Made by a program: the position numbers and the translations under genes. The notes under the pieces were generated by a model, which ran no database searches, was not told the DNA's origin, and was given only the letters and a program-made list of their open reading frames with translations. A stretch of DNA of 44,815 nt, taken from a virus. Of this stretch, positions 1,195 through 44,595 are shown one piece after another (position 1 is the stretch's first letter; every line of letters starts with the position of its first letter). Where the stretch lies: positions 1-44,815 of the IMG/VR virus record IMGVR_UViG_3300050020_000110; one strand, 5' to 3'.

Positions 1195-1265
1195 TTTGAT
1201 AATTTTTAAATTTGTTTTATAATTTATTTCTCGTTTATTTTATTTTGAAAAAGAAAGAAAGCGCA

Positions 1266-1400
1266 GGCATAACAATTGCTATGTTCATAAGCCCGCCTTT
1301 TCGGTTATTGGAAGTTATTTACTCGCTTGAAATTTTGTCTAACGGCTGAAAGCTATGCGCCCGTAATTGGGATTATAATCATAGCAGTTGTCCGTTATGC
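1266..1400 (-). repeat. attC-like inverted repeat, site 3
   Basis: On the minus strand it opens with GCATAAC (1400-1394) six bases after the stop of the gene at 1407 and closes with GTTATGC (1273-1267). The outer arms ACAACTGCTATG and CATAGCAATTGT pair with one mismatch. The centre of about 100 bases is not obviously paired. The length of 135 bases is at the upper end for integron attC sites. Confidence 0.6.
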
Positions 1401-1406
1401 GTAATA

Positions 1407-1670
1407 CTAAGAAATAAGACACGCACCTTTGAGCGCACAACGTACAGCATCTTTGACTTCGTGGAAGTCTTCGTATGTTTTCACGTTAACCATTCCAGTT
1501 TCAATGTCGATTACATCAATCATAAACCGTTTTAAATGGTCATATTTTGGCCCTCCGAATCCGTGATCGGTTGTAATGTTTATTTGTTTGCCTTTATAAG
1601 TAGCTCTAAACTCATTTTCTGTTGAAACTTTAATATTTCGTGGCTGGATAATTGCTCCTGAAATTCTCAT
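1407..1670 (-). CDS. Hypothetical cassette protein, 87 aa
   Basis: The product MRISGAIIQPRNIKVST through KGACLIS is a compact protein with an apparent beta-rich first half and a helical end (FHEVKDAVRCALKGA). No family recognised. The frame is open up to 1748, but that extension would run through the attC-like repeat ending at 1701. I therefore place the start at ATG 1670, 31 bases after the repeat, as in the other cassettes. Between repeat and start lies CTTTCTTTCTTAATTC. The stop is followed after six bases by the next repeat. Confidence 0.65.
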   Translation of the reverse strand: MRISGAIIQPRNIKVSTENEFRATYKGKQINITTDHGFGGPKYDHLKRFMIDVIDIETGMVNVKTYEDFHEVKDAVRCALKGACLIS

Positions 1671-1700
1671 AACTTTTTGAATTAAGAAAGAAAGTACTTC

Positions 1701-1828
1701 GCCTAACACACGCCTATTTTTAAGCGGGGCAGAAGTGATTTCTAACAAGTTTATATTAATAATTAATTTTTGTGATTTCTACTAAATTCAGCTAAAGACC
1801 CGCCTAAATATAGGCTAGGTCGTTATGC
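1701..1828 (-). repeat. attC-like inverted repeat, site 4, with a canonical GTTAGGC core
   Basis: On the minus strand it runs from GCATAAC (1828-1822), two bases after the stop of the gene at 1831, to GTTAGGC (1707-1701). GTTAGGC fits the integron core GTTRRRY exactly. The arms GCCTATATTTAGGCGGG and CCCGCTTAAAAATAGGC match as complements except for two positions. The centre is AT-rich and unpaired. Of the sites in the window this one fits the attC model best. Confidence 0.65.
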
Positions 1829-1830
1829 GC

Positions 1831-2184
1831 TTAAAGCCAACTCGGCACGACATAAACTTTCAAATAAAGCCTTGTAGCAGTTTCAATCATATTCTTACTG
1901 CCTCGACTCTTAAAATCCCAAAAGCAAATAAGCGTGTCTGCATATTCAGCCATTTCTCGGTTTCTAAAAGGCCCTGCCATATTTCCGTAGGTCTTCCACT
2001 TAGCAGGAAATTTAGTCAGTTTGTACCCACGCCCTAAAGCATATCGCTCTCCAAGAAAGTCAGCACCTTTAGCCGTTCCACTTACAATCTCAATATCTGA
2101 TAAACCCTTTAGGATTCTATCACATTCAGACTTTAGAAGCTCGTAGTTGTAGAAGTTTCTACTTCCGGCGATTATGACTTTCAC
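1831..2184 (-). CDS. SLOG-superfamily (DUF2493/YspA-like) nucleotide-binding protein
   Basis: The product starts VKVIIAGSRNF, followed by SGTAKGADFLGERYALG, KFPAKWKTYGNMAGPFRN and MAEYADTLICFWDFKSRGSKNMIETA. These are the conserved blocks of the SLOG Rossmann-fold family (GSR loop, G-A-GAD helix, GP-RN motif, SRG-N motif), which binds nucleotides or nucleotide-derived ligands. I chose GTG 2184 because family members begin at this VKVIIAGSR segment. ATG 2217 is an in-frame alternative but would overlap the preceding small gene. The stop lies two bases from the CATAAC end of site 4. No repeat is seen on its upstream side, so it may be the boundary gene of the array. Confidence 0.85.
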   Translation of the reverse strand: MKVIIAGSRNFYNYELLKSECDRILKGLSDIEIVSGTAKGADFLGERYALGRGYKLTKFPAKWKTYGNMAGPFRNREMAEYADTLICFWDFKSRGSKNMIETATRLYLKVYVVPSWL

Positions 2185-2188
2185 AACT

Positions 2189-2350
2189 TCACATTTCGCA
2201 AAATATCCACATTCCAACAGGGATACAGCATTTGCCGGTCAAAACAAATACAAGACTGTATATTGGTATTTCCACAGGAAGTAGAAATACAGAACCTATG
2301 AGCAGCATAAGCTTTAGGGGTCTTCTAAGAATGCCATACATCTTTTTCAT
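2189..2350 (-). CDS. Small membrane protein, 53 aa
   Basis: Reads MKKMYGILRRPLKLMLLIGS, then a hydrophobic stretch with FLLPVEIPIYSLVFVLTG and GMWIFCEM. One or two membrane segments are likely, with a positively charged N-terminus. Its ATG overlaps the TGA of the exonuclease gene (ATGA), and its stop falls just before the start of the SLOG gene. This tight coupling supports a real gene. Function unknown. Confidence 0.6.
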   Translation of the reverse strand: MKKMYGILRRPLKLMLLIGSVFLLPVEIPIYSLVFVLTGKCCIPVGMWIFCEM

Positions 2351-2913
2351 AATATTTGAAGGGTTTTATATATTTGGCGAGTAAGCTTCACATCGTATAA
2401 AGCTTCGTGAGTAAGTCTCTCATCTACCTTAATACCCAAGTGTCGGGCTACAGCAGTGAGATTAAATTCAGACATACTTGCACGTTCTTCTTTCAATAGG
2501 TCAGAAGAGAGTACAAATACATCGAGAGGGCTGTTCCAAAAGTAAGAACCAAAATAAGGGTCTCCGTTTTGTTCAAACCAAGCACGTAAGAACTGATTAT
2601 CAAAAGCAGCGTTGTTGTATCCGCAAAGGAAAAATCGGTCTTTCTTATCGAACTTGTTTACATACTTTTGCAGAGTTTTAGTGAGTTTTGTATAGACTGC
2701 CTTCATATCGGGATAAGTCTTACAATCGTCAGGAGTTATGCTTTTCATCTTGAAGGCATCAGGTTCGTAAGCAGCTTGGGGGTGAGGGCAGACGTTGAGA
2801 TTTATTTCTTCAACTACTTTTCCATCAATCTCAACTAAGCAAGCAATTTGGTGGATACCGTGCTTCCAGTGTTTTACCCCTGTAGTTTCTAGGTCGAAGT
2901 ATAGGATTTTCAT
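2347..2913 (-). CDS. DEDDh 3'-5' exonuclease (DnaQ/exonuclease I-like)
   Basis: 188 residues. The N-terminus carries YFDLETTG (first Asp and Glu of the DEDD site), the middle has NNAAFDNQFLRAWF (second Asp), and the C-terminal part has HEALYDVKLTRQIY, the HxAxxD of the DEDDh class. It is a single-domain nuclease that would remove nucleotides from 3' ends, either proofreading with the phage polymerase or trimming DNA. It sits in the early operon with replication genes. Its start overlaps the stop of the zinc miniprotein by an ATGA junction. Confidence 0.88.
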   Translation of the reverse strand: MKILYFDLETTGVKHWKHGIHQIACLVEIDGKVVEEINLNVCPHPQAAYEPDAFKMKSITPDDCKTYPDMKAVYTKLTKTLQKYVNKFDKKDRFFLCGYNNAAFDNQFLRAWFEQNGDPYFGSYFWNSPLDVFVLSSDLLKEERASMSEFNLTAVARHLGIKVDERLTHEALYDVKLTRQIYKTLQIL

Positions 2914-3080
2914 TCTTCACGAGTTTTAGCGCATCTATCGCAGCAGTCGTAGTCTATTTGAGTAAACTGATTATATTCCGCTTTACAATCTTCGCAGTAG
3001 GGTTCTCCGCAGCGCTCGCATATTGCTATTGCAGGTTCTCCGCAATGGACGCACATCATAATTGCATTTTCCAATTCCAT
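2910..3080 (-). CDS. Cysteine-rich zinc-binding miniprotein, 56 aa
   Basis: Starts MELENAIMMCVHCGEPAIA and continues with CERCGEPYCEDCKAE and DYDCCDRCAKTREE. Four CxxC pairs suggest two small zinc knuckles of the ribbon or B-box type. Such proteins usually act as nucleic-acid or protein adaptors. Nothing more specific can be said. The TGA overlaps the ATG of the exonuclease gene, so the two are translationally coupled. Confidence 0.7.
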   Translation of the reverse strand: MELENAIMMCVHCGEPAIAICERCGEPYCEDCKAEYNQFTQIDYDCCDRCAKTREE

Positions 3081-3084
3081 AATC

Positions 3085-3240
3085 TTATAAGTATTTAATT
3101 TTCATTTGTTCTTTAGGAACTCCGTGTTGAGCAAATTCCTTTTTTAAATCTTGCAAAATCGCCCAAGGCTGATTGTCTGCAAGTGTTATAGTTTTACCCG
3201 AAGGTAGGGTCTGTACGAGTTTTCCGTGTGTTGGTTTCAT
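3085..3240 (-). CDS. Small hypothetical protein, 51 aa
   Basis: Reads MKPTHGKLVQTLPSGKTITL then DNQPWAILQDLKKEF and ends KEQMKIKYL. The ATG overlaps the stop of the 92-residue gene upstream (ATGA). The next gene begins five bases beyond its TAA. Soluble, basic, no recognised domain. Short proteins with a hydrophobic Trp-containing middle and KxxYxI-like end occur widely in Bacteroidetes phages. Confidence 0.6.
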   Translation of the reverse strand: MKPTHGKLVQTLPSGKTITLADNQPWAILQDLKKEFAQHGVPKEQMKIKYL

Positions 3241-3515
3241 AATACTACGTCTTTAAAAACGTCATCAGAATATCTTCTGACTTCGTAAAGTTCGTGTTTC
3301 AAGATAAACTCCCATGAAGGGAAACTATTCAGTTTTAGTATGTTCAAAATGTGAGAGTCCTCCATACCTTGAACTCTTACTTCTTTACCGTCTTTAGTTT
3401 TCCAGAAGAGGATTTTCAAAAGATAATCTCGATACATCTGATTGAGGTCATACTCGTAAGCATCTTCCCAGCTACCGTCATAATCGCACATGCCATTTTC
3501 TTCTGCCCAGCTCAT
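3237..3515 (-). CDS. Hypothetical protein, 92 aa
   Basis: Begins MSWAEENGMCDYDGSWEDAY. Acidic first third, then LLKILFWKTKDGKEV and a final segment RRYSDDVFKDVVL. No domain recognised, no membrane segment. It is in the same operon as the DUF2815 gene, about 50 bases downstream of it. Confidence 0.65.
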   Translation of the reverse strand: MSWAEENGMCDYDGSWEDAYEYDLNQMYRDYLLKILFWKTKDGKEVRVQGMEDSHILNILKLNSFPSWEFILKHELYEVRRYSDDVFKDVVL

Positions 3516-3568
3516 AACTTTAGTTTTAAAGAGGGCATCGCAAAGTACGATACCCTCAAAATTAAATA

Positions 3569-4168
3569 CTACAAATAGCTTTTGCCTTCTTCTCCGATTT
3601 CTACATCGTCAAATGCTGCACTTGCAGACATACCCGAACCGGCTAATCTTTCACCGTTACCAGCGAATAAGATTTTGTTTAGTGAACATGCGATACCACG
3701 ACCAAACGAGTTGTCGTAAATGTAAATGCTTATTTCAGCATAAGCATAGCAGCCTGAATAAACTACATCAGCACCTACGTTTTCATAAACACCTTTATCA
3801 ACACGTTTTACCACAGAAGGATACTGACCCTCTGACTTGTAAACGCCACCATTAATAAACATGCTACCGACATAAGCTTCATCGCTTGGGCGGTCTTCAT
3901 CACCATCACGCAAAGGCATCGCTTTAGGTTTAGCACCTCTGAACTTTGTTTTGTACATAGCCAAAACAGCAGCCTGAGCTTCCTCAACTTGCTTGATAGC
4001 GACTTTGTCCTTTTCTTTGTCCATCAGCATAGAAACACCATACTTGTACTGCACCTTGCCTTTAGCGTTGGTTACTTTTTCACCATCACCTTCAAACAGT
4101 TTCACATAAGATAAACGAACTTTTCCGATTACCAAGTTCACATTTTCACTTGCTTCCATTTTATTCAT
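3569..4168 (-). CDS. DUF2815 family protein (phage single-stranded DNA-binding-like)
   Basis: 199 residues starting MNKMEASENVNLVIGKVRLS. It shows the family features: an opening beta strand with RLSY, KYGVSMLMDKEKDK, a PLRDGDEDRP segment, and a C-terminal VYSGCYAYAEISIYIYDN with GIACSLNKILFAG. DUF2815 proteins occur next to DUF2800, polA and primase genes in phage replication modules and are predicted OB-fold single-stranded DNA binders. The acidic tail (DDVEIGEEGKSYL) suits such a role. ATG 4159 is a possible alternative start. Confidence 0.85.
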   Translation of the reverse strand: MNKMEASENVNLVIGKVRLSYVKLFEGDGEKVTNAKGKVQYKYGVSMLMDKEKDKVAIKQVEEAQAAVLAMYKTKFRGAKPKAMPLRDGDEDRPSDEAYVGSMFINGGVYKSEGQYPSVVKRVDKGVYENVGADVVYSGCYAYAEISIYIYDNSFGRGIACSLNKILFAGNGERLAGSGMSASAAFDDVEIGEEGKSYL

Positions 4169-8202: not shown

Positions 8203-8769
8203 TCATACTTCATGGTATTTATTAAAGGCTTTCTCCATTGATACGTTGTAGGGTTCACGCCCGTACTTAGCCGCTAAAGCCTTATAGCCTGAACCGTTGT
8301 AGATTGTTGCTACACCATCAAAATCAAGCGATTTTATACAGGATTGCAGTTTTACATCCGTTGCAATAAACTTGCATATCTGCCATATTTGTCGGTCAAG
8401 CCCCTTCTTTGCATCATCCCACATCTCACCTACGGTTTTATAGCCAAGCCGAGCGTAATGGAAGCCCATTATCTGCCCCAACCCTATTGACGTGCTCTCC
8501 ATTGCGGCATTCGGATTTTCCGAGAAAGCATTGTTGAAAGCATCCCACTCTTCGGATTGAACATCGACCTTATTGAGCGACCAAAGCCCCGATGGAGCAT
8601 AGAGGGCTTTCTTTTTGAACCATGCTGGTTCAAACTGGATAATTATCTTTCCGGTTTTGGAATCAAATCCCAGTCCTCCAGTTTCAACAGAAATGAAGGC
8701 TGCAACAGCCGCCCAATCCAAACTGAAAAGAGCTGCAATAGTTTTTATTAAAGGGATAATTATTTTCAT
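8203..8769 (-). CDS. N-acetylmuramidase endolysin (DUF3380 family)
   Basis: 188 residues. AFISVETGGLGFDSKTGK near residues 25-42 carries the presumed catalytic glutamate (E29). IIQFEPAWFKKK, ESTSIGLGQIMGFHYARLGY and a C-terminal IYNGSGYKALAAKYG are the conserved blocks of the DUF3380 N-acetylmuramidase fold. It would cut the glycan strands of peptidoglycan at lysis. There is no signal peptide with a clear cleavage site, but the N-terminus is hydrophobic (MKIIIPLIKTIAALFSL), so a signal-arrest form is conceivable. Start and stop overlap the next gene upstream. Confidence 0.88.
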   Translation of the reverse strand: MKIIIPLIKTIAALFSLDWAAVAAFISVETGGLGFDSKTGKIIIQFEPAWFKKKALYAPSGLWSLNKVDVQSEEWDAFNNAFSENPNAAMESTSIGLGQIMGFHYARLGYKTVGEMWDDAKKGLDRQIWQICKFIATDVKLQSCIKSLDFDGVATIYNGSGYKALAAKYGREPYNVSMEKAFNKYHEV

Positions 8770-17019: not shown

Positions 17020-20000
17020 TTAATTCATCAAGCCTTTTTTCCGAGCTAAATATTTATCTGACTGATTTAATTGGTCAAAAAGTCGTTGAGTACTTAACTT
17101 TGTAGATTTTTGATTAGCTAAACCTTTTTCGATATTCCGCAAAACATTCTCTACCCGGTACATATCGTAGCTTTTATCCGAAATCTTCGACAAACCAATA
17201 ATACTCATTAAATCTATTTTAGTCAGGTCGGGGTAAATTTTAGTTCCCGCTTCCATATTCATCACCGTAGGAGTATTTGGGGTTACGCCCATATATCCGT
17301 TAGGAGACACCCATAACTCGTGGCGTTTTTCACCTACAAGCACTTTACCATCTTTCTCTACAACACCCCCCTCTTCAAAAGCAGGAATTGTTTGAGCTAA
17401 TACTAAAGCCGTAGATGCTACCGCAAGTCCCGTATAAAGAGGTGTTAGTGCGCCAGCTACGAGTAAATTCTCTATTGACGATACCGCCATAGCATAATTG
17501 ACCCATATCTTTGCTATCGCTATCCCTTGTTCTACTAGAAACTTCGTTTTGTCGGATTCCTTCTTCTTCCGGTCTATTTCGTCCTGCTGCCCTTGCGCCA
17601 TAGCTTCGATACGCGCTTTTTCATCAGCAGCATCCTTTGTAGAAAGTACACCGGCATCTTCTTTAAGCTGAATCTCGCTAAGACGTTCATCAGATATTTT
17701 CTTATCTGTAGCAAGTTGAGCATCTAAACTGTCTGAGTACCTTTTGAAGAAGCCATCCCAAACGGCAGTGAGGGTATCAGCTATTTTGGTAGCCGACTCT
17801 AACTGAATCTGCTCTTTGGTCTTTTCTAACTCAATAGCAGACTGTAGCTCGAATTGGGATTGAGTTTTTATTCGTTCTTTCGATAGTTCATCCCAACGTT
17901 TAGATATTTCAAGCTTACGTGCTCCACTGGTATCAGCTAAATCATATTCTTTTTGGAGAGTATCAATTTCAAGCATAATCTTTGAATCGTTATAACTCTG
18001 TTGGTCTGATAACTGCTGTTGGGTGTTGCTCTTTGAATATCCGGTTACAGCAGATGCTACGATTTCGCCCGTTGACTTACTCGCCGTTTTCGCTTTTTGC
18101 TTAGTGTAGTTTTCTTCTATCAGACGAAGCTTTTCCTCGTTAGAAACTTTCAATGAATCAATCTCCTCTTTGTACCTGTCTTGGCTGATGGTGAAGAGTG
18201 TCTTACTTAGTTTCAAAGCTTCGGATTCCAAAGTCTTGTTGAACTTATCTTCTGCCTGAATAAAATCCGTATCAAAGTTTTCCTTGATGTGCATGGAAGC
18301 AACGGCATACTCTTTGTCCGATTTATCATGCTCTGCTTTGGATATTTTATCAGCCGCAAATAAAGCGTTATTGCGCTTTTTCTTCTGCTCTATGTCTTTG
18401 GTGTCTTTCTCAAAACGATTTATAGCATCGTTATTGGCTTTCTTGTTGTCAACGTCTGCTAGTTTAGCAGCCGTATCAAAATACCATTGGGCTGCTTGCT
18501 CACGTTCCTTGAAAGATATGAGAACTCCGTCAGTCGTAGCTTTCTGAGTACGCAACTCCATATCAGACATCAACTGAACCAACTCTGCTCGTTTTTTATC
18601 GTAGAACTCTTGAGCTACATAGATATCTTGCGCTGTTTGAACGACTTGGGCGTTTGTAGGCTCGTCCTTCGCCTTGTCCAATTGTCCAGGATACAACTCA
18701 GTAGCAGATGCTTTTAAAGATTGCATCTGCGAAGTCTTTACAGTTATATCAGTCAAGTATTTTATAGCAGCTTTCCCTTTCGAGGTGAAATTCTTTATCG
18801 TTTCAGCAGTTTGAGTTTGTTCTATGGAGAGTTGCTTTTTCTGCATATTATACTTCCACTCTTCAGTAGTGATGTCGAGTATGTTCTGGCTCTTAGTCAT
18901 CTTACCACGTTCCATGTCAAAAGCAAATAAGTTATGAGCATCCACCAAAGTGGCATCTCTTTCTTTTTTTGTCAGTTCTCGGTTCAGTTTCTGCTCTTTG
19001 TCGAAGATGGCGGTTCTCTCATAGAGGTCGTATGTATTTTGTAAGAAGATGCTAAAATTCTTTTTATCTGCTTCGGATAAACCGAGGGCTTTAAATTTCA
19101 TTTGGCTATCTTGTCTTTCTGTCATTTTTTGGGCTGCCGCATCCATCTGCAATAGTGATGCTTGCATTTTGATTGTCCAATCTATGAAGTTTTTAGCATT
19201 TTTAGCATAGTTCGCCATCACCTCGTTTATATTATTGAGTTTGCCGTAATGCGTCCCAAGAGTAGTATTGTACTCGTCTACTATGGCTTTTGAACTGCCT
19301 ACCCCTTTTCGATACTTGTCGATAGCCATCCCTAACTCAGATACCTTGGCAGCGTTGGATTGCACTACGCCGTTATGCGCTGTCAGAACTTTTGATAATG
19401 CCTGTTGAGATATGGTCAATTTATCAACATATGCCTGAGTCCCTGCAAGAGCGGTTATCCAAGTACCCACCCACTTTAAAATAGCGGGGCCGTACAACTG
19501 CATTATTACCATTGCGCCGGACATAATACCTGTCACCCCAAAAATAGATTTTGAAATAAGGCTGAACATGGATGGTATTTTACCCGCAGGGCCGAGAGCT
19601 GCTATTTGGGCAGCAGTCATTTCCTTTTGGGCCAATATCATTGCTTTTTGTTCTTTGGAAACAGCTTGGAAAGCTTCGGCCAGCATCGGTAAGTTATTTG
19701 TCAAAGACATAATACCAATACGAGCAGATATGGCAAAGTTAGGCATTTCCTTTAATACTTGGCCTAAGTTGATGCCCAACATTTTAGTAGCGGTAGAGTA
19801 GTGACCGACTTGTCCCGAATAGTTTCCGTAGGCTTGTTGTGCCAAGTCTAATTCAGCTCTTTGCTTCTTTAAGTTTGTCAGCACATCGTTCCCGACAGTT
19901 CCTGCATCACCGTTTTTAGCATTTTTGAACTCAACTTCGTCCAAACGCATGTACGCAAGAGTCAAATCAGCTACGGATTTTTTTAGTTGGTTTAGGTATC

Positions 20001-24674: not shown

Positions 24675-25979
24675 TTACACTACTGTTTCTCCGGCTACTA
24701 CTAAAGGAGCAGTGATTGCAGATTTGATAGCAGCAATATCATCATAGATGAAAGCTTGCTCGTCCAAATGTTTTACGAATTGGTGGAAACGGGATTCCCC
24801 CAAGATCACAAATTGGTTTTTGATGAAGTCATCATTGATCCAACCTACCTTTACCAAATAGGGCACGTAGTTAGTGATATTATACTTACTCAAATCCGCA
24901 GAGAAAATCTTCCCAACAGGAACTGATTCATCAGGGAAAATCGTAACCCCCCCGATAGTCACTTGATTAGTGATTGAAGCCATTGGATACAACGGATGTC
25001 CCAAAGCGTCTTTAGCAGAAACTACGTTTAAGAAAAAGTCAATTGGGTTAACCAATACGGTGTTGGCGCGGTACGGCGTTTCATCTTCGTAGTTGTGGGT
25101 GGTCGCAATATCAACGATAGTTGCATTCACAACATCCATGAAGTTAGGGGTAGCAACCCCGTGTGTCATAGTTCCGGGAACGAAAGCACGACCATAAAGA
25201 GTTGCGCCCTTAGGTTCTAAACCTTGGTTCGTACCGTAAAGCAAAGCTTTAGCTTTTTTCAAGTCATGTTTCTTACGCAAGAAATCACGAGCTACACTTT
25301 CCAATCCTGCTACATCATTTACTGCTTCTTCAGTCAGTTTAATCCATGCAGCAATCTTTTTAGGAGAAGCCCAACGAGTTACCCACTCAAAGTCAATTTG
25401 AGGTTTTGCAGTTCCTTCAGCCACGAACAAATAGTCACCATCTTTAGGTACAGCTTCAGTGTACGGGTACGCTGAACCATTACTTGTCGCCAAGGTGGTC
25501 ATAAACTGTTCGATGTTGATCTGACGTAAGTTGATATTTCCAAGAGGAGCCAATTGAGTTCCTACGATCACCGGTGCAGCAGAAGGCAGAGTACCACTTC
25601 CTGTAGTAATATCATCTACAACTTTAGTGACATCAATTTCGATAAGGCCTGAACCGGCTTTCAAAGCTGCCATGATTTCGGGTTGCCTTTTAGCGATCTC
25701 TTTCACGATAGCATCTTCAAGGCTGATAGGCATTCCGTTGCTGATTCCTTTTTGCAATTCTGTGATTAAACGTCCTTGTTCTAAAGCAGCATTCTTGAGA
25801 GTTTTCATCTCGGGTGCGTAGTCAGGAGTTTCTTTTTCTTCCAAAGCTTTAATCTGACTCTTGATGGCCGTTACATCACTTGGAGTGACAGCCTTTTCGA
25901 CAGAATCAACAAGCTCATTGAAGTTTTTTGCGTATTCGAGGTTTTGTCCATCCAACCCCTCTAATGACATTTTCTTCAT
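24675..25979 (-). CDS. Major capsid protein (HK97 fold), 434 aa
   Basis: An N-terminal helical, charged delta domain (about residues 1-110, NFNELVDSVEKAVTPSDV, IKALEEKETPDYAPEMK) is probably cleaved by the upstream protease. The capsid domain follows with TGSGTLPSAAPVIVGTQL, FVAEGTAKPQIDFEWVTRWA (the E-loop/spine region) and a C-terminal LGESRFHQFVKHLDEQAF. This is the recognisable HK97-type major capsid arrangement, immediately after portal and protease. Confidence 0.9.
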   Translation of the reverse strand: MKKMSLEGLDGQNLEYAKNFNELVDSVEKAVTPSDVTAIKSQIKALEEKETPDYAPEMKTLKNAALEQGRLITELQKGISNGMPISLEDAIVKEIAKRQPEIMAALKAGSGLIEIDVTKVVDDITTGSGTLPSAAPVIVGTQLAPLGNINLRQINIEQFMTTLATSNGSAYPYTEAVPKDGDYLFVAEGTAKPQIDFEWVTRWASPKKIAAWIKLTEEAVNDVAGLESVARDFLRKKHDLKKAKALLYGTNQGLEPKGATLYGRAFVPGTMTHGVATPNFMDVVNATIVDIATTHNYEDETPYRANTVLVNPIDFFLNVVSAKDALGHPLYPMASITNQVTIGGVTIFPDESVPVGKIFSADLSKYNITNYVPYLVKVGWINDDFIKNQFVILGESRFHQFVKHLDEQAFIYDDIAAIKSAITAPLVVAGETVV

Positions 25980-26913: not shown

Positions 26914-28107
26914 CTATTCTAAGTAAGGTTCGATAAAAGCTCTAGCTTCTGAATTGGTGACTATCTTAGCCTCCAATAGTATTTTTACTGCCGATGATGC
27001 TTGATTCAGAGCGACCGCTGCTTGACTCTGACTTTCTTGGAAAAAATCCATGTGTGCGAAGTCAGGCATGTATTTCCATGGTCTGTCTGGTATTCCTCTT
27101 AGCTTAGCCAACTGCGGAAACCGTATATTGGCTTCGGGTATAACTGATGCTGTGTAAGATTCTTTTCTGCCCTCTGGCATCGTTTTAAATCTTGGCTCTT
27201 TGGTAGCAAATATACTTGGTATCCCATATCTGTCTAGAATTTGAATTGTAGCGTTTAAAGCTAGTCCGGTCAAATCCATATCGACTATCTTAGAAGTCAA
27301 CGGGATGTAGTTTGCTGCATTTTTAGTAACGATGTACTTGAATTGTTGCTGTAATCCTCCGTATTGCTTCAAAGACTCTTGCATTGCTTTTTTATCAGCT
27401 TCCATGAAAGGGGCTGATAGCATATCAATGTCTTTTGCGCCCATCGCGATAATTCCTCTTGCCCCACCATCAGCTATGAGTTGTGTGCTCATTTCACCAA
27501 TAGCTAAAAGAGCTGAGATTGGTTCGGCTAAAGCTATTAAGCGGCTTTCTCCTAAGCCATATCCCAAAAGCCCAAAACAATTATCGTATATTTGGACAAC
27601 CTCGCTTGGTTGTAGAGTTAAAGTCCCTTGACCGATACTTACATGATATTCTGTAACTTTTCGTTGAAAAAATGAATCCGATGCAGAGCTGTATTGTGGC
27701 TGAATAAGGTTATTCGGTATGCAATAGCAGTCAAAGTCATTCGGAAATCCCGCTATCGGAGATTTATAAACGTAGCAAGTACCAAAAATGGAACAATACG
27801 CTTCAACTTGATTATTAAATACCTGAAAAGATTGGTAAGGGTTAAAACTCTCCAGTTTAGCTAAATCCGCTTTCACTGTAGGGTTTATAATCTTTTTACC
27901 TAAGTCATCTTTCGCCCAAATTCGTAAATTACCAAAGGCATTTACCCTTCGTGTCACTGCGGACTGTACTGCCGAACTCCTTCGGAAAGCATCCACTTGA
28001 CCATAAACGGTATGGGTTTGTACGAGAATCCGCTGAGAAGCTGCTAGGCTGTTTGCGATGTCCGTATCTGATTCGGTAATACCGTTTAAGTTTATGAAGA
28101 AGCCCAT
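26914..28107 (-). CDS. Portal protein, 397 aa
   Basis: Opens MGFFINLNGITESDTDIANS, with AVQSAVTRRVNAFGNLRIWA, the conserved entry helix of HK97-type portals. Further conserved segments are EAYCSIFGTCYVYKSPIAGF and LALNATIQILDRYGIPS. The ring forms the DNA channel at the head vertex. It heads the structural transcript from its own promoter at 28125-28158. Confidence 0.85.
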   Translation of the reverse strand: MGFFINLNGITESDTDIANSLAASQRILVQTHTVYGQVDAFRRSSAVQSAVTRRVNAFGNLRIWAKDDLGKKIINPTVKADLAKLESFNPYQSFQVFNNQVEAYCSIFGTCYVYKSPIAGFPNDFDCYCIPNNLIQPQYSSASDSFFQRKVTEYHVSIGQGTLTLQPSEVVQIYDNCFGLLGYGLGESRLIALAEPISALLAIGEMSTQLIADGGARGIIAMGAKDIDMLSAPFMEADKKAMQESLKQYGGLQQQFKYIVTKNAANYIPLTSKIVDMDLTGLALNATIQILDRYGIPSIFATKEPRFKTMPEGRKESYTASVIPEANIRFPQLAKLRGIPDRPWKYMPDFAHMDFFQESQSQAAVALNQASSAVKILLEAKIVTNSEARAFIEPYLE

Positions 28108-28124
28108 ACTTGATAATTATTTTG

Positions 28125-28158
28125 CAAATATATAGTTTTTTTCAATACTTCTGCTCAA
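28125..28158 (-). promoter_or_regulatory. Bacteroidetes-type promoter of portal and head genes
   Basis: TATATTTG on the minus strand (28132-28125) with TTG about 23 bases upstream (28158-28156). It starts 18 bases before the portal ATG. Confidence 0.55.
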
Positions 28159-28162
28159 CATA

Positions 28163-28243
28163 CAGATAAAATCTATACTTTAACAAAGTTTAACTTATAG
28201 ATTTTTTCTATATCTTTTGGGTTTTTGATAGAAAAAATCTATT
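28163..28243. promoter_or_regulatory. Cluster of TATAGA/TCTATA operator-like palindromes
   Basis: TATAGATTTTTTCTATA at 28196-28212 is a palindrome with a T6 centre. Its complement ATAGAAAAAATCTAT recurs in opposite orientation at 28229-28243, giving a 15-base inverted repeat with a 17-base spacer. A half match (GATAAAATCTATA) lies at 28165-28177. The same palindrome occurs in the small-terminase promoter (31618-31634). Confidence 0.55.
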
Positions 28244-28469
28244 TACGAAGGTATTTTAGTGATAAAAGATACTCGGTTTTAGCTTTCAGTACTTTTGCCT
28301 TAGCATCTTCTTTTTTAGCTAAAATATCCAAATCATAGCCTAAAACCCGTATTCTAGTCCATTTTATGCCTAAAAAGCACATATCAACGAACACAAAACG
28401 TGATATTTTCACGGCAAACACTCCGGGCAATACCTCTGAGAAACTGAAAAGTTTATTTATGTTTTTCAT
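28239..28469 (-). CDS. Hypothetical protein, 76 aa
   Basis: Starts MKNINKLFSFSEVLPGVFAV and ends with a basic helix (KKEDAKAKVLKAKTEYLLSL). No recognised family. It lies one base from the large-terminase stop and overlaps an operator palindrome at its 3' end. It may be a small DNA-packaging accessory or a head protein. Confidence 0.55.
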   Translation of the reverse strand: MKNINKLFSFSEVLPGVFAVKISRFVFVDMCFLGIKWTRIRVLGYDLDILAKKEDAKAKVLKAKTEYLLSLKYLRK

Positions 28470-28470
28470 C

Positions 28471-29931
28471 CTATAAATTTATTACCCACCGATAAAAATA
28501 AATCACACCATATCCGAGAGAATCCCAGAAGTGGTTGAATTTATCGACAGGTATGTTAGTTTTATTTCCTTCAATTACTTGGTACACGTAGTTCTGTGCT
28601 TCTCTCTCAGTTTCTTCACAAGCCACTACAAATAGTTTGAAACGTTTCATTATCGAAATCCTAACCGTAATGCTCGGCTTCTTTACTTTCACAAATTGCC
28701 AGACTAAACCCCGCTGCATAACAATTGAGTTCAAATCCCTGACAAACTCTAGATCCCGGTACTTATCAGCACTGTCGCAAGCCACAACTATTGGAGCATA
28801 CTCTACTCCTTTAAATTCATTACCCTTGCTATCCCAACGCCAACCAGCTTCAACCTTACGTCTGACCTCCTCTGCTTGGATATGCGGGAAGATAAGTTCA
28901 AAAAGGGTATCTACATCAGGCGTGTTGGAGTAAGTCTTTTTCTCGGCATACAGCTCTTTGTTTCCAACATTGACACCATGGCGTACCAAAACGCTTGGGT
29001 CGGATGTGTAACCGAAGTCCAACGAAAGGTTAACGTGGTCTAATCCTGTTTCGGGAAACTCTTTAATCCAAATCGGGTCAAAAATAGCACCCTCTTTAGG
29101 AGCGGGAGTTCCTTCACCGTAGACAAGCCAATACCACTTATCAATCGTTTTAGCTTCTTTGTTCGGTATGTTTTCCCTGCGATATAAATGATAATCTGCC
29201 GGAGAGCAATTGTCGGGTCTTTCAGGTTTCTTCCAAATCCGCTTTTTAAACCCGAACTCGTCAGTTATAATTTTACTATCATCAAAATCCCAAGGGCATT
29301 TCTCCTCAATACTCGAAACGACATTATCTGTCAAGTGGGCATTATCCAAATAGCAAGTCCGGGTAAAAAGCACGTTGTATTCTTTCTCCATGTCGAAAAT
29401 CCAGTGGCTTGTATAGCTAGGGTTCCAATCGGAGATAAATAATTTCTCACAACGCATTATCCAACCTTGAACAGCTTGTCGGGTATTGACAGAGATTATT
29501 TCATTCACAAAACAAATGTCGGTACGTGGGGCTTCATTGTTTCCACCTGTAGACTTTTGTTCTGCCAATCCCATAAACTCAATCGTATTCCCGTAAATCT
29601 TTATCCGGGGATTGGGGTATTCGGTTATGGTGCAACGATCCATAACTCCCATTTTGGTAAAGCACTCAATAAAATCTTTGTAGGTAAACTTGCGACAATC
29701 CACCAAAGTTTCACGAAGGACGGCAATGTACAATCCCTTGTTCACATTCTTATTACAGAAAGTGTAAATCAATTGGATGGTAGCATAAGTCTTACCTGAA
29801 CGTGAACTTCCCTGATTAGCTATCTTGACCAAAGCCTTTCTGCCCGTAGCGGGATTAACTGCCCCTTTGTTATTGGAGTAGAAAGAGGCCATCTGCATAA
29901 ACAGATTATTTGGTTTAAAGTCAAATGCCAT
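28471..29931 (-). CDS. Terminase large subunit, 486 aa
   Basis: Walker A GSSRSGKT at about residues 41-48, a Walker B-like TDICFVNEI, and a nuclease domain with LSLDFGYTSDPS, VACDSADKY and HFWDSLGYGV give the ATPase-nuclease pair expected of a packaging motor. The preceding genes (DUF6527, RepL-like) separate it from the small terminase by about 1.2 kb. It pumps DNA into proheads and cuts concatemers. Confidence 0.92.
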   Translation of the reverse strand: MAFDFKPNNLFMQMASFYSNNKGAVNPATGRKALVKIANQGSSRSGKTYATIQLIYTFCNKNVNKGLYIAVLRETLVDCRKFTYKDFIECFTKMGVMDRCTITEYPNPRIKIYGNTIEFMGLAEQKSTGGNNEAPRTDICFVNEIISVNTRQAVQGWIMRCEKLFISDWNPSYTSHWIFDMEKEYNVLFTRTCYLDNAHLTDNVVSSIEEKCPWDFDDSKIITDEFGFKKRIWKKPERPDNCSPADYHLYRRENIPNKEAKTIDKWYWLVYGEGTPAPKEGAIFDPIWIKEFPETGLDHVNLSLDFGYTSDPSVLVRHGVNVGNKELYAEKKTYSNTPDVDTLFELIFPHIQAEEVRRKVEAGWRWDSKGNEFKGVEYAPIVVACDSADKYRDLEFVRDLNSIVMQRGLVWQFVKVKKPSITVRISIMKRFKLFVVACEETEREAQNYVYQVIEGNKTNIPVDKFNHFWDSLGYGVIYFYRWVINL

Positions 29932-29932
29932 G

Positions 29933-30217
29933 TTACACGAAGTTAGCTATGTTTTTGGTTATGATGTAATGCGACCTATTAGGGCAATTCATATTTAGGA
30001 CTGACGGAGTAAAAGATATTTTTCCGTCAGTTTCTTTTATAAGTTTCCACCCGTCACTATCCAGCGGCATTGCTGCCATTTCACCACAACCACATAAGCA
30101 TAGGTGCATAGATAGCTCAAAATCCTCTGAAATATAAATAATTCCCTGCTTCAACTCCTTCGGCATATATCCGCAGAACTCAACTTGCTCAATCTCCACT
30201 TTTCGGATAGTTCTCAT
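29933..30217 (-). CDS. DUF6527 family protein, 94 aa
   Basis: Carries HLCLCGCGEMAAMPL, then DGKISFTPSVLNMNCPNRSH. The CGCG pair and the CPNRSHY end are diagnostic of DUF6527. Known members occur next to ThiF/E2-like genes in bacterial ubiquitin-like conjugation and defence loci and also in phages. Here no such partner is encoded. The Cys and His suggest zinc binding. The gene overlaps the RepL-like gene by four bases (ATGA) and the large terminase follows directly. Confidence 0.75.
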   Translation of the reverse strand: MRTIRKVEIEQVEFCGYMPKELKQGIIYISEDFELSMHLCLCGCGEMAAMPLDSDGWKLIKETDGKISFTPSVLNMNCPNRSHYIITKNIANFV

Positions 30218-30651
30218 AAGTTCTTAATTTTATCTTTTAAATATTCGTATTTCCTAATTCGTTCTCTCACATCATGTGTGGAACACCTGAACATATGAGC
30301 AGGATTTACCACAAAATCATTATTCCCTAATTTCAGTAAACAGTCCTTACTCAACAATCCACGGATAATAGCTGAAAGCATATCGGTCTTAATATCCAAT
30401 TTCTTACAAAGTAATTCTTTCTGCCAAACAGCTAAGCTCAAACGCCCTTCACTAGATTCAGACCATTGGTGCAAAAGCAACACGACTTTAAACTCGTTAG
30501 CAGTTAAAGCAAAAACCCAATCCAGACTTTCCGTAGTTCTAAGCATAATGAAAGATTCAGTGAATTTGTTAGAATAGACTGCTTGACGACTCAGAACTTC
30601 TCCTGATATTTCGTCTACAACGGTTACTTCTTTTATCTGCTTTTTGGACAT
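30214..30651 (-). CDS. RepL-like winged-helix protein, 145 aa
   Basis: The centre FALTANEFKVVLLLHQWSESS looks like a helix-turn-helix, followed by KKLDIKTDMLSAIIRGLLSKD as a second helix pair. The end NDFVVNPAHMFRCSTHDVRER fits the closing part of RepL-type plasmid replication initiators (VNPxxxFRG). It could bind DNA as an initiator or as a regulator near the repeat-bearing intergenic region just upstream (31039-31130). Confidence 0.6.
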   Translation of the reverse strand: MSKKQIKEVTVVDEISGEVLSRQAVYSNKFTESFIMLRTTESLDWVFALTANEFKVVLLLHQWSESSEGRLSLAVWQKELLCKKLDIKTDMLSAIIRGLLSKDCLLKLGNNDFVVNPAHMFRCSTHDVRERIRKYEYLKDKIKNL

Positions 30652-30741
30652 TTCTCATATTTTAGTAGTAGAAAAGTGGGATTAAATTAAAACCGCTACG
30701 AAATTTTAAACCAATGTGTTAATGTTAAACTCTCTAAAAAT

Positions 30742-30764
30742 GAGCGAGTTACAAAACTTCGCTC
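30742..30764 (-). terminator. Terminator-like hairpin
   Basis: GAGCGA and TCGCTC pair with an 11-base loop, followed on the minus strand by ATTTTTAG. It lies between the small-terminase region and the RepL-like gene, so it could separate or attenuate the transcript. Confidence 0.5.
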
Positions 30765-30806
30765 TTTATAATATTAATCACGTATCGTACTTTTCAGGTA
30801 TGAAAC

Positions 30807-30893
30807 TTATCGTGCCTGTGATGCTAAAAAGTGTGTCACGAAAATAGGTTGTCCTAAAATGTCAACTCCGATTTGATAAGTAGCTTTATCCAT
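30807..30893 (-). CDS. Possible 28-residue miniprotein
   Basis: An ATG at 30893 opens MDKATYQIGVDILGQPIFVT and ends LASQAR. The composition looks protein-like, but there is no further support. May be non-coding. Confidence 0.25.
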   Translation of the reverse strand: MDKATYQIGVDILGQPIFVTHFLASQAR

Positions 30894-31038
30894 AATTGTT
30901 AAAAAGTGATTTAGTGAAATTGGGTTTAATTACTATTTTGGAGGGAGGGGCGATGCCGGTTCTATCTGCGCCAAATGCCGTACCCCTATGGACATAATGT
31001 CCTGCTTTTTCTATTATACATAATGCAAATTATAGGCT

Positions 31039-31130
31039 TTAATGTTTGTTAGTACTTTAGTTTGTTGATACTCAACACTTTAGTAGGATTATACATTTTA
31101 GTACACATTTGGAGTACTAACAAACATTAA
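31039..31130. repeat. 18-base inverted repeat flanking CACTTTAGTA-like direct repeats
   Basis: TTAATGTTTGTTAGTACT (31039-31056) is the exact complement of AGTACTAACAAACATTAA (31113-31130). Between and across the arms lie related short repeats: GTACTTTAGTT, ACACTTTAGTA, ACATTTTAGTA and ACATTTGGAGTA, about 12-23 bases apart. It sits just downstream of the small-terminase stop, so it may be a replication origin with iterons or the site recognised by terminase. Confidence 0.7.
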
Positions 31131-31143
31131 TTTATAGTTAAAC

Positions 31144-31578
31144 TTAAGTTAAGTCTAAATCTTTGCCCTGGATTGTGATGTTTATTACTTCTTTTGATCC
31201 TGTTAGTTCTATTTCACTTGCATCCTTCAAACTATTGAGCCTAGAGACTATGTTGCTGTTGTAGTGCCCCGCTATCGCGCCGGCTATCTGTGAGTCCTGT
31301 ATGTATTCTCTTACATGTACGGAAGTTTCCAATAATTCTTTATCAGTTTGTACCTCTATATTACAGTATGTGTTAAATGTTTGCACACTTATATTCGCAA
31401 ATAAACAAAAGCCTGCTATTGTAAGAGGCTTATATATAGGCACATCCACTATAGATCCGGCTGCCTCCCCTGACTTAATTAGTTCAGGTTTATAAAACGA
31501 TTGATCTTTAATTTGTGCGATCCATTCATTAAATGTAAATTCAAGATCTTTTGCTGTATAATTTTTGGGCCGTGCCAT
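31144..31578 (-). CDS. Terminase small subunit, 144 aa
   Basis: The N-terminus MARPKNYTAKDLEFTFNEWI carries a basic DNA-binding start. The middle FLFANISVQTFNTY-like helix-turn-helix and the C-terminal DASEIELTGSKEVINITIQG match small terminases of Bacteroidetes phages. It recognises the packaging start and recruits the large subunit. It is the first gene of the late transcript, with promoter and operator at 31612-31643. Confidence 0.75.
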   Translation of the reverse strand: MARPKNYTAKDLEFTFNEWIAQIKDQSFYKPELIKSGEAAGSIVDVPIYKPLTIAGFCLFANISVQTFNTYCNIEVQTDKELLETSVHVREYIQDSQIAGAIAGHYNSNIVSRLNSLKDASEIELTGSKEVINITIQGKDLDLT

Positions 31579-31611
31579 TATGTATGAATTAGTTAATGTT
31601 TATAAGAGTTG

Positions 31612-31643
31612 CAAATATATAGATTATTTCTATACTGTGCAAA
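31612..31643 (-). promoter_or_regulatory. Small-terminase promoter with operator palindrome in the spacer
   Basis: On the minus strand TTTG (31643-31640), a 20-base spacer and TATATTTG (31619-31612) match the Bacteroidetes -33/-7 pattern. The spacer contains TATAGAAATAATCTATA (complement at 31618-31634), so a bound regulator would block RNA polymerase. Confidence 0.65.
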
Positions 31644-31697: not shown

Positions 31698-31721
31698 TAT
31701 AGAAAAATATACCTATTTTTG
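31698..31721 (+). promoter_or_regulatory. Rightward promoter of the small-gene island with half operator
   Basis: TATTTTTG at 31714-31721 fits TAnnTTTG, 23 bases before ATG 31744. TATAGAAAAATATA at 31698-31711 resembles the operator. No clear -33 element. Confidence 0.4.
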
Positions 31722-35121: not shown

Positions 35122-35280
35122 ATGAAAGAAATAGTAATTAACATATTGTCAAAAATGTACCAAAGGAGGTATGAAGTTTTGAAGGGAGAAACCCCCTCAG
35201 ACAAAAATCTAACGGGGGATTTATCCCCTCCAAACAAAAATTCGTATGAACAACGCAAAGAAAATACTACAAGAGATTGA
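35122..35280 (+). CDS. Possible small protein, 52 aa, overlapping the HTH gene
   Basis: An ATG at 35122 opens MKEIVINILSKMYQRRYEVL, continues through ETPSDKNLTGDLSPPNKNSY and ends TTRD. It spans both upstream copies of the CCCCTCC repeat and overlaps the start of the HTH gene by 35 bases. The repetitive DNA inside it makes a regulatory leader more likely than a protein, or both. Confidence 0.35.
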   Translation: MKEIVINILSKMYQRRYEVLKGETPSDKNLTGDLSPPNKNSYEQRKENTTRD

Positions 35281-35550
35281 GAAAGTCCGGGCTTATGTCG
35301 GGGTAACTCAATACGAAATTATACAAAACACAAGCCTGACAAAAATGACCGTACACGGAATAAAACACGTTGAAATATCACCCACGTTAGGAGTGTTGTG
35401 CGAGTACTGCAACTACCTGGGGCTGGATATTAAGATCGTTCCGAGGCAGGAACTAGTGGCCACAGAGAAACCGATGTTGTCAAAGAAGACAGACTTCACC
35501 ATGTGACCCCATCCAAACAAAAATCCTACTACCCCCTCCAAACAAAAAGT
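35192..35550 (+). repeat. Four direct repeats CCCCTCCAAACAAAAA around the HTH gene
   Basis: Copies lie at 35192-35209 (CCCCCTCAGACAAAAATC), 35225-35241, 35507-35524 and 35532-35550. Two precede the regulator gene start (35246) and two follow its stop (35506). They could be operators for autoregulation or boundary repeats of a moved gene. Confidence 0.65.
35246..35506 (+). CDS. XRE-like helix-turn-helix regulator, 86 aa
   Basis: The core GVTQYEIIQNTSLTKMTVHG with KHVEISPTLGVLCEYCNYLG is an XRE-type helix-turn-helix as in small phage repressors or Cro-like proteins. A short tail follows. It would bind operator DNA as a dimer. Possible targets in this genome are the flanking repeats or the TATAGA/TCTATA palindromes, but nothing here shows which. 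No integrase or lysogeny module accompanies it. Confidence 0.75.
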   Translation: MNNAKKILQEIEKVRAYVGVTQYEIIQNTSLTKMTVHGIKHVEISPTLGVLCEYCNYLGLDIKIVPRQELVATEKPMLSKKTDFTM

Positions 35551-43971: not shown

Positions 43972-44181
43972 TTAAAAATAAAATAGTTTGTGACCACAAA
44001 ATTCAAACCCTTTCACTTCAGGAGTTCCGAACTTTGCATAAATTGTTCTCTTAGGCATTTTAGTAATATCGTGGTATTCGTCAGCCGTCATAAATTCGTC
44101 TGCACACTCGTGCAAGATTTCGATTTTATCTTCGGTGCTGAGTTTGCGGATATTTTGCTTTTGAAGTTCTGTAAGTGCCAT
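43972..44181 (-). CDS. Helix-turn-helix (excisionase-like) protein, 69 aa
   Basis: The core FMTADEYHDITKMPKRTIYA is a MerR/excisionase-type winged helix. KFGTPEVKGFEFCGHKLFYF completes it. Such proteins bind DNA as small regulators or architectural factors. I placed the start at ATG 44181 (MALTELQKQNI), since the earlier ATG lacks a typical context. It lies just outside the cassette-like array. Confidence 0.7.
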   Translation of the reverse strand: MALTELQKQNIRKLSTEDKIEILHECADEFMTADEYHDITKMPKRTIYAKFGTPEVKGFEFCGHKLFYF

Positions 44182-44199
44182 AGTTTCACGGTTTTGCAC

Positions 44200-44244: not shown

Positions 44245-44595
44245 TTATAAAAAAAGATGCGCTTCACGGGTTTTTAGCGTTTCGATAACCCCATTAGCTT
44301 TAATGACACATTCGTTTAATTCCTCATAATTATGACCGTCATAGTTTTTTGTATGCAGCAAATATTCAGTTGCCCATTTTAATTTTTCTAATACAACCTC
44401 CAAATTATAAGGATTATAATGACCTATAATTTTAATTGCAATCAGAGTATTTTTTATAAGATTTGATTCACATACAGTAAATCTATTATCTTGCATTTTT
44501 TCAAGTAATTGCCATTGAGAAATTCCAAGCAGTTCAGCTAATCGCTGTTGAGTGTATAACTCTAAAATTTCGTCTATTTGTTTTTGTAATTCCAT
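44245..44595 (-). CDS. Helix-turn-helix cassette protein, 116 aa
   Basis: Starts MELQKQIDEILELYTQQRLA. The segment TQQRLAELLGISQWQLLEKM is a helix-turn-helix. The rest is helical (NTLIAIKIIGHYNPYNLEVV). It may act as a small transcription factor or as an antitoxin. No toxin gene sits beside it. Located 40 bases after site A, with its 3' end at a CATAAC box, so it is the last unit of the cassette array before the replication genes. Confidence 0.7.
   Translation of the reverse strand: MELQKQIDEILELYTQQRLAELLGISQWQLLEKMQDNRFTVCESNLIKNTLIAIKIIGHYNPYNLEVVLEKLKWATEYLLHTKNYDGHNYEELNECVIKANGVIETLKTREAHLFL

Follow-up and report, generated by a model that had tools for sequence, protein, structure and literature searches.

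OxyR, a LysR-type peroxide sensor, represses the mom gene of phage Mu. A study of such systems places mom under the control of host OxyR together with Dam, and describes the gtr operon of phage P22, where OxyR acts as a repressor at a promoter-overlapping site and as an activator at another (PMC2909390). In Pseudomonas, a single OxyR box, ATAGTCTTGCTCTAT, covers the -10 element of the phage promoter of xisF4 in Pf4, as shown by gel shift (PMC12395586). Here we describe OxyR-type boxes at the promoters of the small terminase subunit TerS and of the portal protein in IMG/VR virus record IMGVR_UViG_3300050020_000110, analysed over its whole length of 44,815 bases (the window). By their sequence, the palindromes at these promoters are matches to the ATAG-N7-CTAT boxes of Bacteroidales oxyR promoters, and we consider host OxyR their probable reader.

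The window resembles Mu mom in that a phage gene would be under host OxyR, whereas mom is a DNA-modification gene controlled with Dam methylation and the boxes of the window stand at packaging and head genes. It also differs from gtr, a phage-borne lipopolysaccharide-modification operon whose phase variation in Salmonella involves Dam, and from xisF4, which encodes the excisionase of a filamentous prophage and is activated; the genes concerned here are TerS and portal of a tailed phage. A further comparison is with a host oxyR promoter of a Bacteroidales metagenome-assembled genome (locus L196, TATAGATATTATCTATATATTTG), where the box centre lies 7 bases before the -7 element, as it does at TerS, at the weakest portal box (portal box 1) and in the related phage locus L147. 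This host promoter has a second box 21 bp upstream, whereas the TerS promoter has one box only.

Boxes at the terminase and portal promoters

A preliminary description of the window had proposed a palindromic operator shared by the terminase and portal promoters. Exact copies of TATAGA-N5-TCTATA do occur at both promoters (31618-31634 and 28196-28212) and nowhere else in the 44.8-kb record. The second portal copy is also present, although its coordinates, given as 28229-28243, should read 28227-28243, and two portal boxes had been overlooked, at 28161-28177 and, weaker, at 28131-28147. The TerS promoter carries a single box, and the portal promoter has four, spaced by 30, 35 and 31 bp (Table 1). 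The ATAG-N7-CTAT core is exact at 31618, 28196 and 28227 and begins with ACAG at 28161, an ACAGA variant like that of the first box of several host oxyR promoters. On the other hand, the half match described for the divergent promoter (31698-31711) lacks support, since the OxyR matrix introduced below does not place it within the top 14 sites of the window.

These boxes exceed what chance controls produce. With up to two mismatches, the palindrome occurs at nine places in the window versus 3.06 expected (standard deviation 1.84), a count reached by one of 100 shuffles; four of the nine lie within one 113-bp stretch upstream of the portal gene, and four others are scattered. In 400 second-order Markov copies of the window, OxyR-matrix sites of at least 18 bits averaged 0.01, with a maximum of one (4 copies), versus four in the real sequence.

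Both promoters contain the -7 element TATATTTG, TTTG/TAnnTTTG being the Bacteroidota promoter consensus. The box centre lies 7 bases before the first base of this element for the strong box at TerS and for weak box 1 at the portal promoter.

Table 1 Boxes, promoter elements and genes of the packaging and head region of the window. Bit scores refer to the host oxyR matrix.
Feature	Position	Strand	Remarks
OxyR-type box TATAGAAATAATCTATA, TerS promoter spacer	31618..31634	-	exact palindrome; 18.1 bits
Portal box 4, GATAGAAAAAATCTATT	28227..28243	-	2 mismatches, both outermost bases, inner 15 intact; 18.2 bits
Portal box 3	28196..28212	-	exact palindrome; 18.1 bits
Portal box 2, TACAGATAAAATCTATA	28161..28177	-	1 mismatch; 18.4 bits, best site of the window
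Portal box 1, weak, TerS-box register	28131..28147	-	2 mismatches; 9.6 bits
TerS promoter -7 element TATATTTG	31612..31619	-	good TTTG 20 bases upstream
Portal promoter -7 element TATATTTG	28125..28132	-	-33 element (TTTG) poor
Small terminase subunit TerS	31144..31578	-	phrog_606 9e-14; Pfam GP3_package 1e-9
Large terminase subunit TerL	28471..29931	-	phrog_2 5e-14; Pfam Terminase_3 4e-8
Portal protein	26914..28107	-	phrog_12 4e-18; Pfam Phage_portal 9e-14
Major head protein	24675-25979	-	PHROGs

The names first given to the TerS, TerL, portal and head genes agree with PHROGs. Between TerS and TerL sits an open reading frame (ORF) of 145 amino acids (30214-30651), which matched nothing in PHROGs or Pfam at E<=0.01 and came near the cut-off of no NCBIfam model; by eye, we take its product to resemble a winged-helix protein of the RepL type. 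Portal boxes 3 and 4, opposite in sense, could form a strong RNA hairpin (28190-28250, z -6.3 on the - strand), which falls at the end of a 76-amino-acid ORF (28239-28469).

Comparison with host oxyR promoters

We scanned the box pattern over genome contigs and obtained 23 contigs, among them the Bacteroidales genome of L196. There the box stands where a LysR-type gene and a peroxiredoxin gene diverge, at the promoter of the former (gene names assigned by eye), and the LysR-type protein matches solved OxyR structures, 3ho7 among them. Relatives of this OxyR at E<=1e-50 were present in 20 of 99 genomes of the same order, giving 23 loci, and all 23 proteins keep both redox cysteines, 9 residues apart. 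Box pairs with a spacing of about 21 bp, for example AACAGATATTTTCTATC with TATAGATAAAATCTATT, are present in many of the oxyR upstream regions. When a tandem pattern was searched in the 99 genomes with up to two mismatches, it matched 15 places, and a comparison of coordinates puts 10 of these directly upstream of oxyR; the reversed pattern matched 8 places.

For an enrichment test we left out L211, which is the L196 locus and had been found through the phage pattern. Exact ATAG-N7-CTAT lies within 100 bp at 8 of the remaining 22 oxyR loci, whereas 300 rounds of shuffling gave a mean of 0.04 and never more than 1; with one mismatch it lies at 13, versus 1.5 (maximum 5) after shuffling. In one host oxyR box (L222) the inner 15 bases are identical to those of the TerS box of the window. 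The usual form of an OxyR site is ATAGnTnnnAnCTAT; of its two inner bases, compared by eye, one is kept in boxes 31618, 28196 and 28227 and both are kept in 28161. In PMC2909390 the classic site is printed as ATAGxTxxxAxCATAT.

We then scored the window with a matrix built from 20 boxes of ten host oxyR promoters, which are Bacteroidales promoters and may not be those of the phage host. The window's own boxes take ranks one to five, 28131 being fifth (9.6 bits) and the next site reaching 8.8 bits. The four strong boxes score 18.1-18.4 bits, versus 7.6-19.8 bits for the host boxes themselves in leave-one-out scoring, and the four top sites are unchanged when the L196 genome is removed or when first or second boxes alone are used. 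For a looser matrix we took every site that differs from ATAG-N7-CTAT by at most one base, 19 sites in all, which come from 13 of the 22 other oxyR loci. This matrix places the same four boxes first (16.9-18.8 bits), followed by a site at 44471 (10.1 bits) and, in sixth place, by 28131 (9.9 bits).

Recurrence before portal and TerS genes of other phages

We assembled 115 related loci (1.25 Mb), 35 chosen by TerL and the best 80 of 88 by the head protein. The exact palindrome occurs at only two places among them, L020:6903 and L037:468, each at most 80 bp away from a portal gene start (portal assigned by PHROGs). With the main matrix, nine sites reach at least 14 bits; the top two are the portal sites of L037 and L020, the third (L020:8269) lies inside the portal gene, and another (L112, 14.1 bits) lies about 40 bp before its portal.

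Viral contigs were also searched by DNA pattern. A box fused to TATATTTG was found in four contigs, of which L119 and L121 carry it between genes; the boxes of L118 and L120 lie inside genes and were treated as chance. In L119, the box stands between TerL and a portal gene whose product is 50% identical to that of the window; here the register to the -7 element was fixed by the search pattern and the neighbouring gene was not. L119 is one of three kin with an exact portal copy and was itself found by the motif. A box with a more distant -7 element was found in 15 contigs, in portal position only in the already known L020 record (judged by eye and by blast with proteins of the window and its kin). 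A looser scan returned 38 viral and 23 genome contigs with 57 loci, 25 matches being intergenic and 32 intragenic, and only one of these loci (L161, the contig of L147) precedes a portal gene, as judged by eye.

L119 has further features. A 14.7-bit box (973-989) overlaps the start of a 75-amino-acid ORF just before the TerL region, which by eye seems to be interrupted at 1216-3697 by an intein-like stretch with an HNH-like insert. In L121 (3300012942_000106, Mu-like by eye), a 19.4-bit box (8392-8408) stands in the TerS-box register to TATATTTG, with a weaker box of 11.3 bits 30 bp upstream, followed by a 68-amino-acid ORF opposite to the late genes. In two Bacteroidales contigs (L198 and L203) the box is likewise followed by small ORFs, whose C-termini look similar by eye.

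Searching viral contigs with a portal profile returned L147, L119 and L148. The portal of L147 is 51% identical to that of the window, and this locus, which was not chosen by motif, has TATAGAAAATTCCTATA before the portal gene in the TerS-box register (12.4 bits). The same profile had no match in the genome contigs, and a protein search of viral contigs with TerS found no relative. Boxes with no or one mismatch stand before the portal gene in L020, L037 and L147, all found by protein, and in L119 and L279, found by DNA pattern.

L279 comes from a scan of viral contigs for two nearby boxes (21-51 bp allowed), which returned 48 contigs; it and L282 were chosen by motif, not by gene. In L279, two boxes 21 bp apart, as at oxyR, lie directly before the portal gene, which follows TerL and a small ORF, and a further box of 13.9 bits precedes the ORF before TerL. 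This ORF occupies the position of TerS, but it matches PHROGs families without an assigned function. The TerS start of L282 is preceded or overlapped by three boxes scoring 17.4-19.0 bits. A survey for prophages with the L279 portal found distant relatives in 4 of 395 genomes (25-28% identity); in the loci examined, sites scored at most 10.1 bits.

Finally, we examined stretches of 12 public phages (7 whole records), picked by terminase or portal similarity. In a human faecal phage chosen by its portal (L303, MT835681), a box of 16.3 bits separates TerL from portal. In Rhodobacteraceae phage LS06-2018-MD05 (L305), whose TerL is 33% identical to that of the window, a 17.6-bit box (17140-17156) precedes a hypothetical gene, not TerS or portal.

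Across the 48 contigs with nearby boxes (L249-L296) we counted 44 distinct box pairs, which are not all independent because some of the contigs are related. Ten pairs are spaced by 21-23 bp and 23 by 30-33 bp, clusters that are as expected for proteins bound on one face of the helix; the window portal spacings of 30 and 31 bp belong to the second. In Escherichia coli, the reduced form of OxyR is said to cover one helical turn more than the oxidised form. In three contigs with similar flanking proteins (L262 3403-3451, L288 2181-2229 and L289 5260-5308), two boxes of 18.9-19.5 bits lie 32 bp apart between divergent genes.

Which protein reads the boxes

The LysR domain PF00126 was not found in the window, in a search whose positive control was found in 13 of 14 genomes, nor in 11 other phage records that bear the box or are related, many of which are fragments. 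When window ORFs of 45 amino acids or more were compared with the L020 record, which has the box at its portal promoter, only TerS and TerL had a relative (blastp E<0.01). The three phage proteins initially suggested as regulators are thus without a relative there. Because no shared phage regulator is visible, a host protein is the simpler reader.

Discussion

Based on the match between the boxes, host OxyR would bind the TerS and portal promoters. At TerS, the box takes up the spacer that separates the -33 element from the -7 element, and bound OxyR would most likely block RNA polymerase. Repression is suggested here because the register of the box equals that of the host oxyR promoter of L196; oxyR genes are commonly autorepressed, which makes repression the likeliest effect at TerS. 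This register was fixed by the search pattern at L196, L119 and L121, and was not at TerS, portal box 1 and L147. At the portal promoter, which combines a weak box in the TerS register with three strong boxes upstream, OxyR may consolidate repression or, when oxidised, aid the polymerase. Counted upstream from the -7 element, box 2 is at 37 bases and the L020 box at 38; L196 has boxes at 31 and 52 bases on the side of its peroxiredoxin gene, where activation by OxyR is expected, and because of this resemblance either sign is possible at portal. Expression of the late packaging and head genes would remain low up to the point at which OxyR changes state or becomes diluted over many replicated phage genomes. 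Our confidence in the sign and in the trigger is lower than in OxyR as the reader.

Several observations weigh against OxyR as the reader. The ten promoters that supplied the main matrix had been selected by means of a pattern designed in knowledge of both the oxyR sequences and the phage box; this selection bias is lessened because the looser matrix ranks the same four boxes first. The two-box spacing of 21-22 bp typical of oxyR operators is not found in the window, and its TerS promoter has a single box, whereas OxyR binds as a dimer of dimers according to PMC2909390. A strict form of the box occurs at 5 places in four host genomes (in 2 genomes, 2 of the places at oxyR) versus 11 for the backward control, and the exact box occurs once in each of 5 host genomes picked for having it versus 0-1 for the control. 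A wide host regulon of exact boxes is therefore unsupported, the counts not being above the backward control. The palindrome was expected to be conserved in relatives, and it is in some distant kin; 69 of 72 kin portal upstream regions (up to 400 bp, 5 of them truncated) lack an exact copy, and only 4 of the 72 reach 14 bits. L148, with a portal of 21% identity, has no box before it. Among the 12 public phages, one has a portal box and ten have no site of at least 14 bits. The position of the box relative to the -7 element also varies between phages. A phage regulator may moreover lie elsewhere, as several box-bearing records are fragments.

Such a regulator is the subject of a competing explanation, in which a phage-encoded protein (for example the product of 30214-30651, 35246-35506 or 43972-44199) times the late genes and the likeness to oxyR boxes is convergence. 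Phage control is usual for phage late genes, and there is a weak match (E 0.003) between the product of 35246-35506 and a family of CII-like regulators. The L020 portal box is found in a record that shares only the terminase subunits with the window, although a very diverged regulator could escape such a comparison, and convergence on the entire host matrix, ACAGA variant included, seems implausible. We therefore regard this explanation as rather unlikely. The preliminary idea of one regulator for packaging and head genes stands as far as the shared operator is concerned, given the sequence, the chance controls and the recurrence before portal genes and, in L282, before TerS; its phage-encoded regulator is probably wrong.

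The pair at 28196 and 28227 could alternatively function at the RNA level, as a hairpin or terminator that lies between the terminase and portal units, since the two boxes, in opposite sense, give a 15-bp stem of -12.9 kcal/mol with the z score noted above, at the stop codon of 28239-28469. However, the stem has no U run after it, as an intrinsic terminator would, oppositely oriented palindromes fold by construction, and a hairpin leaves unexplained the boxes at 28161 and 31618 and the single strong boxes of L119, L147 and L020; we consider this improbable. It is still less probable that the copies are chance or a by-product of AT-rich promoter DNA. The half-sites and the -7 element TATATTTG do have letters in common, many matches of the pattern scan are intragenic and chance-like (32 of 57), and many kin have no box. 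Against this stand the excess of sites of at least 18 bits over the Markov expectation, the position of the best two sites of the 1.25 Mb of kin, both directly upstream of portal, and the recurrence of the box in L147 and L303, neither of which was chosen by motif.

We return to host OxyR as the probable reader. To our knowledge, late-gene activation in phages of gut and environmental Bacteroidota has been little studied, and no report of OxyR boxes at terminase or portal promoters was found among the literature matches listed, which mostly do not cover subscription papers. The OxyR reading supplies a named protein, a named DNA and a simple laboratory test. As a tentative extension, several Bacteroidota phage lineages could each have wired their packaging and head promoters to host OxyR, so that assembly begins only upon oxygen or peroxide, or upon titration of OxyR by replicated DNA.

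If host OxyR is the reader, late expression would be tied to oxygen, which for anaerobic hosts signals gut exit, inflammation or cell damage; a phage of Bacteroidota-type bacteria may in this way sense the state of its host to time the production of new particles. If true, the control of phages by host OxyR would reach from accessory genes such as mom, gtr and xisF4 to the core of virion assembly, and a host redox sensor would serve as a late switch or copy-number timer.

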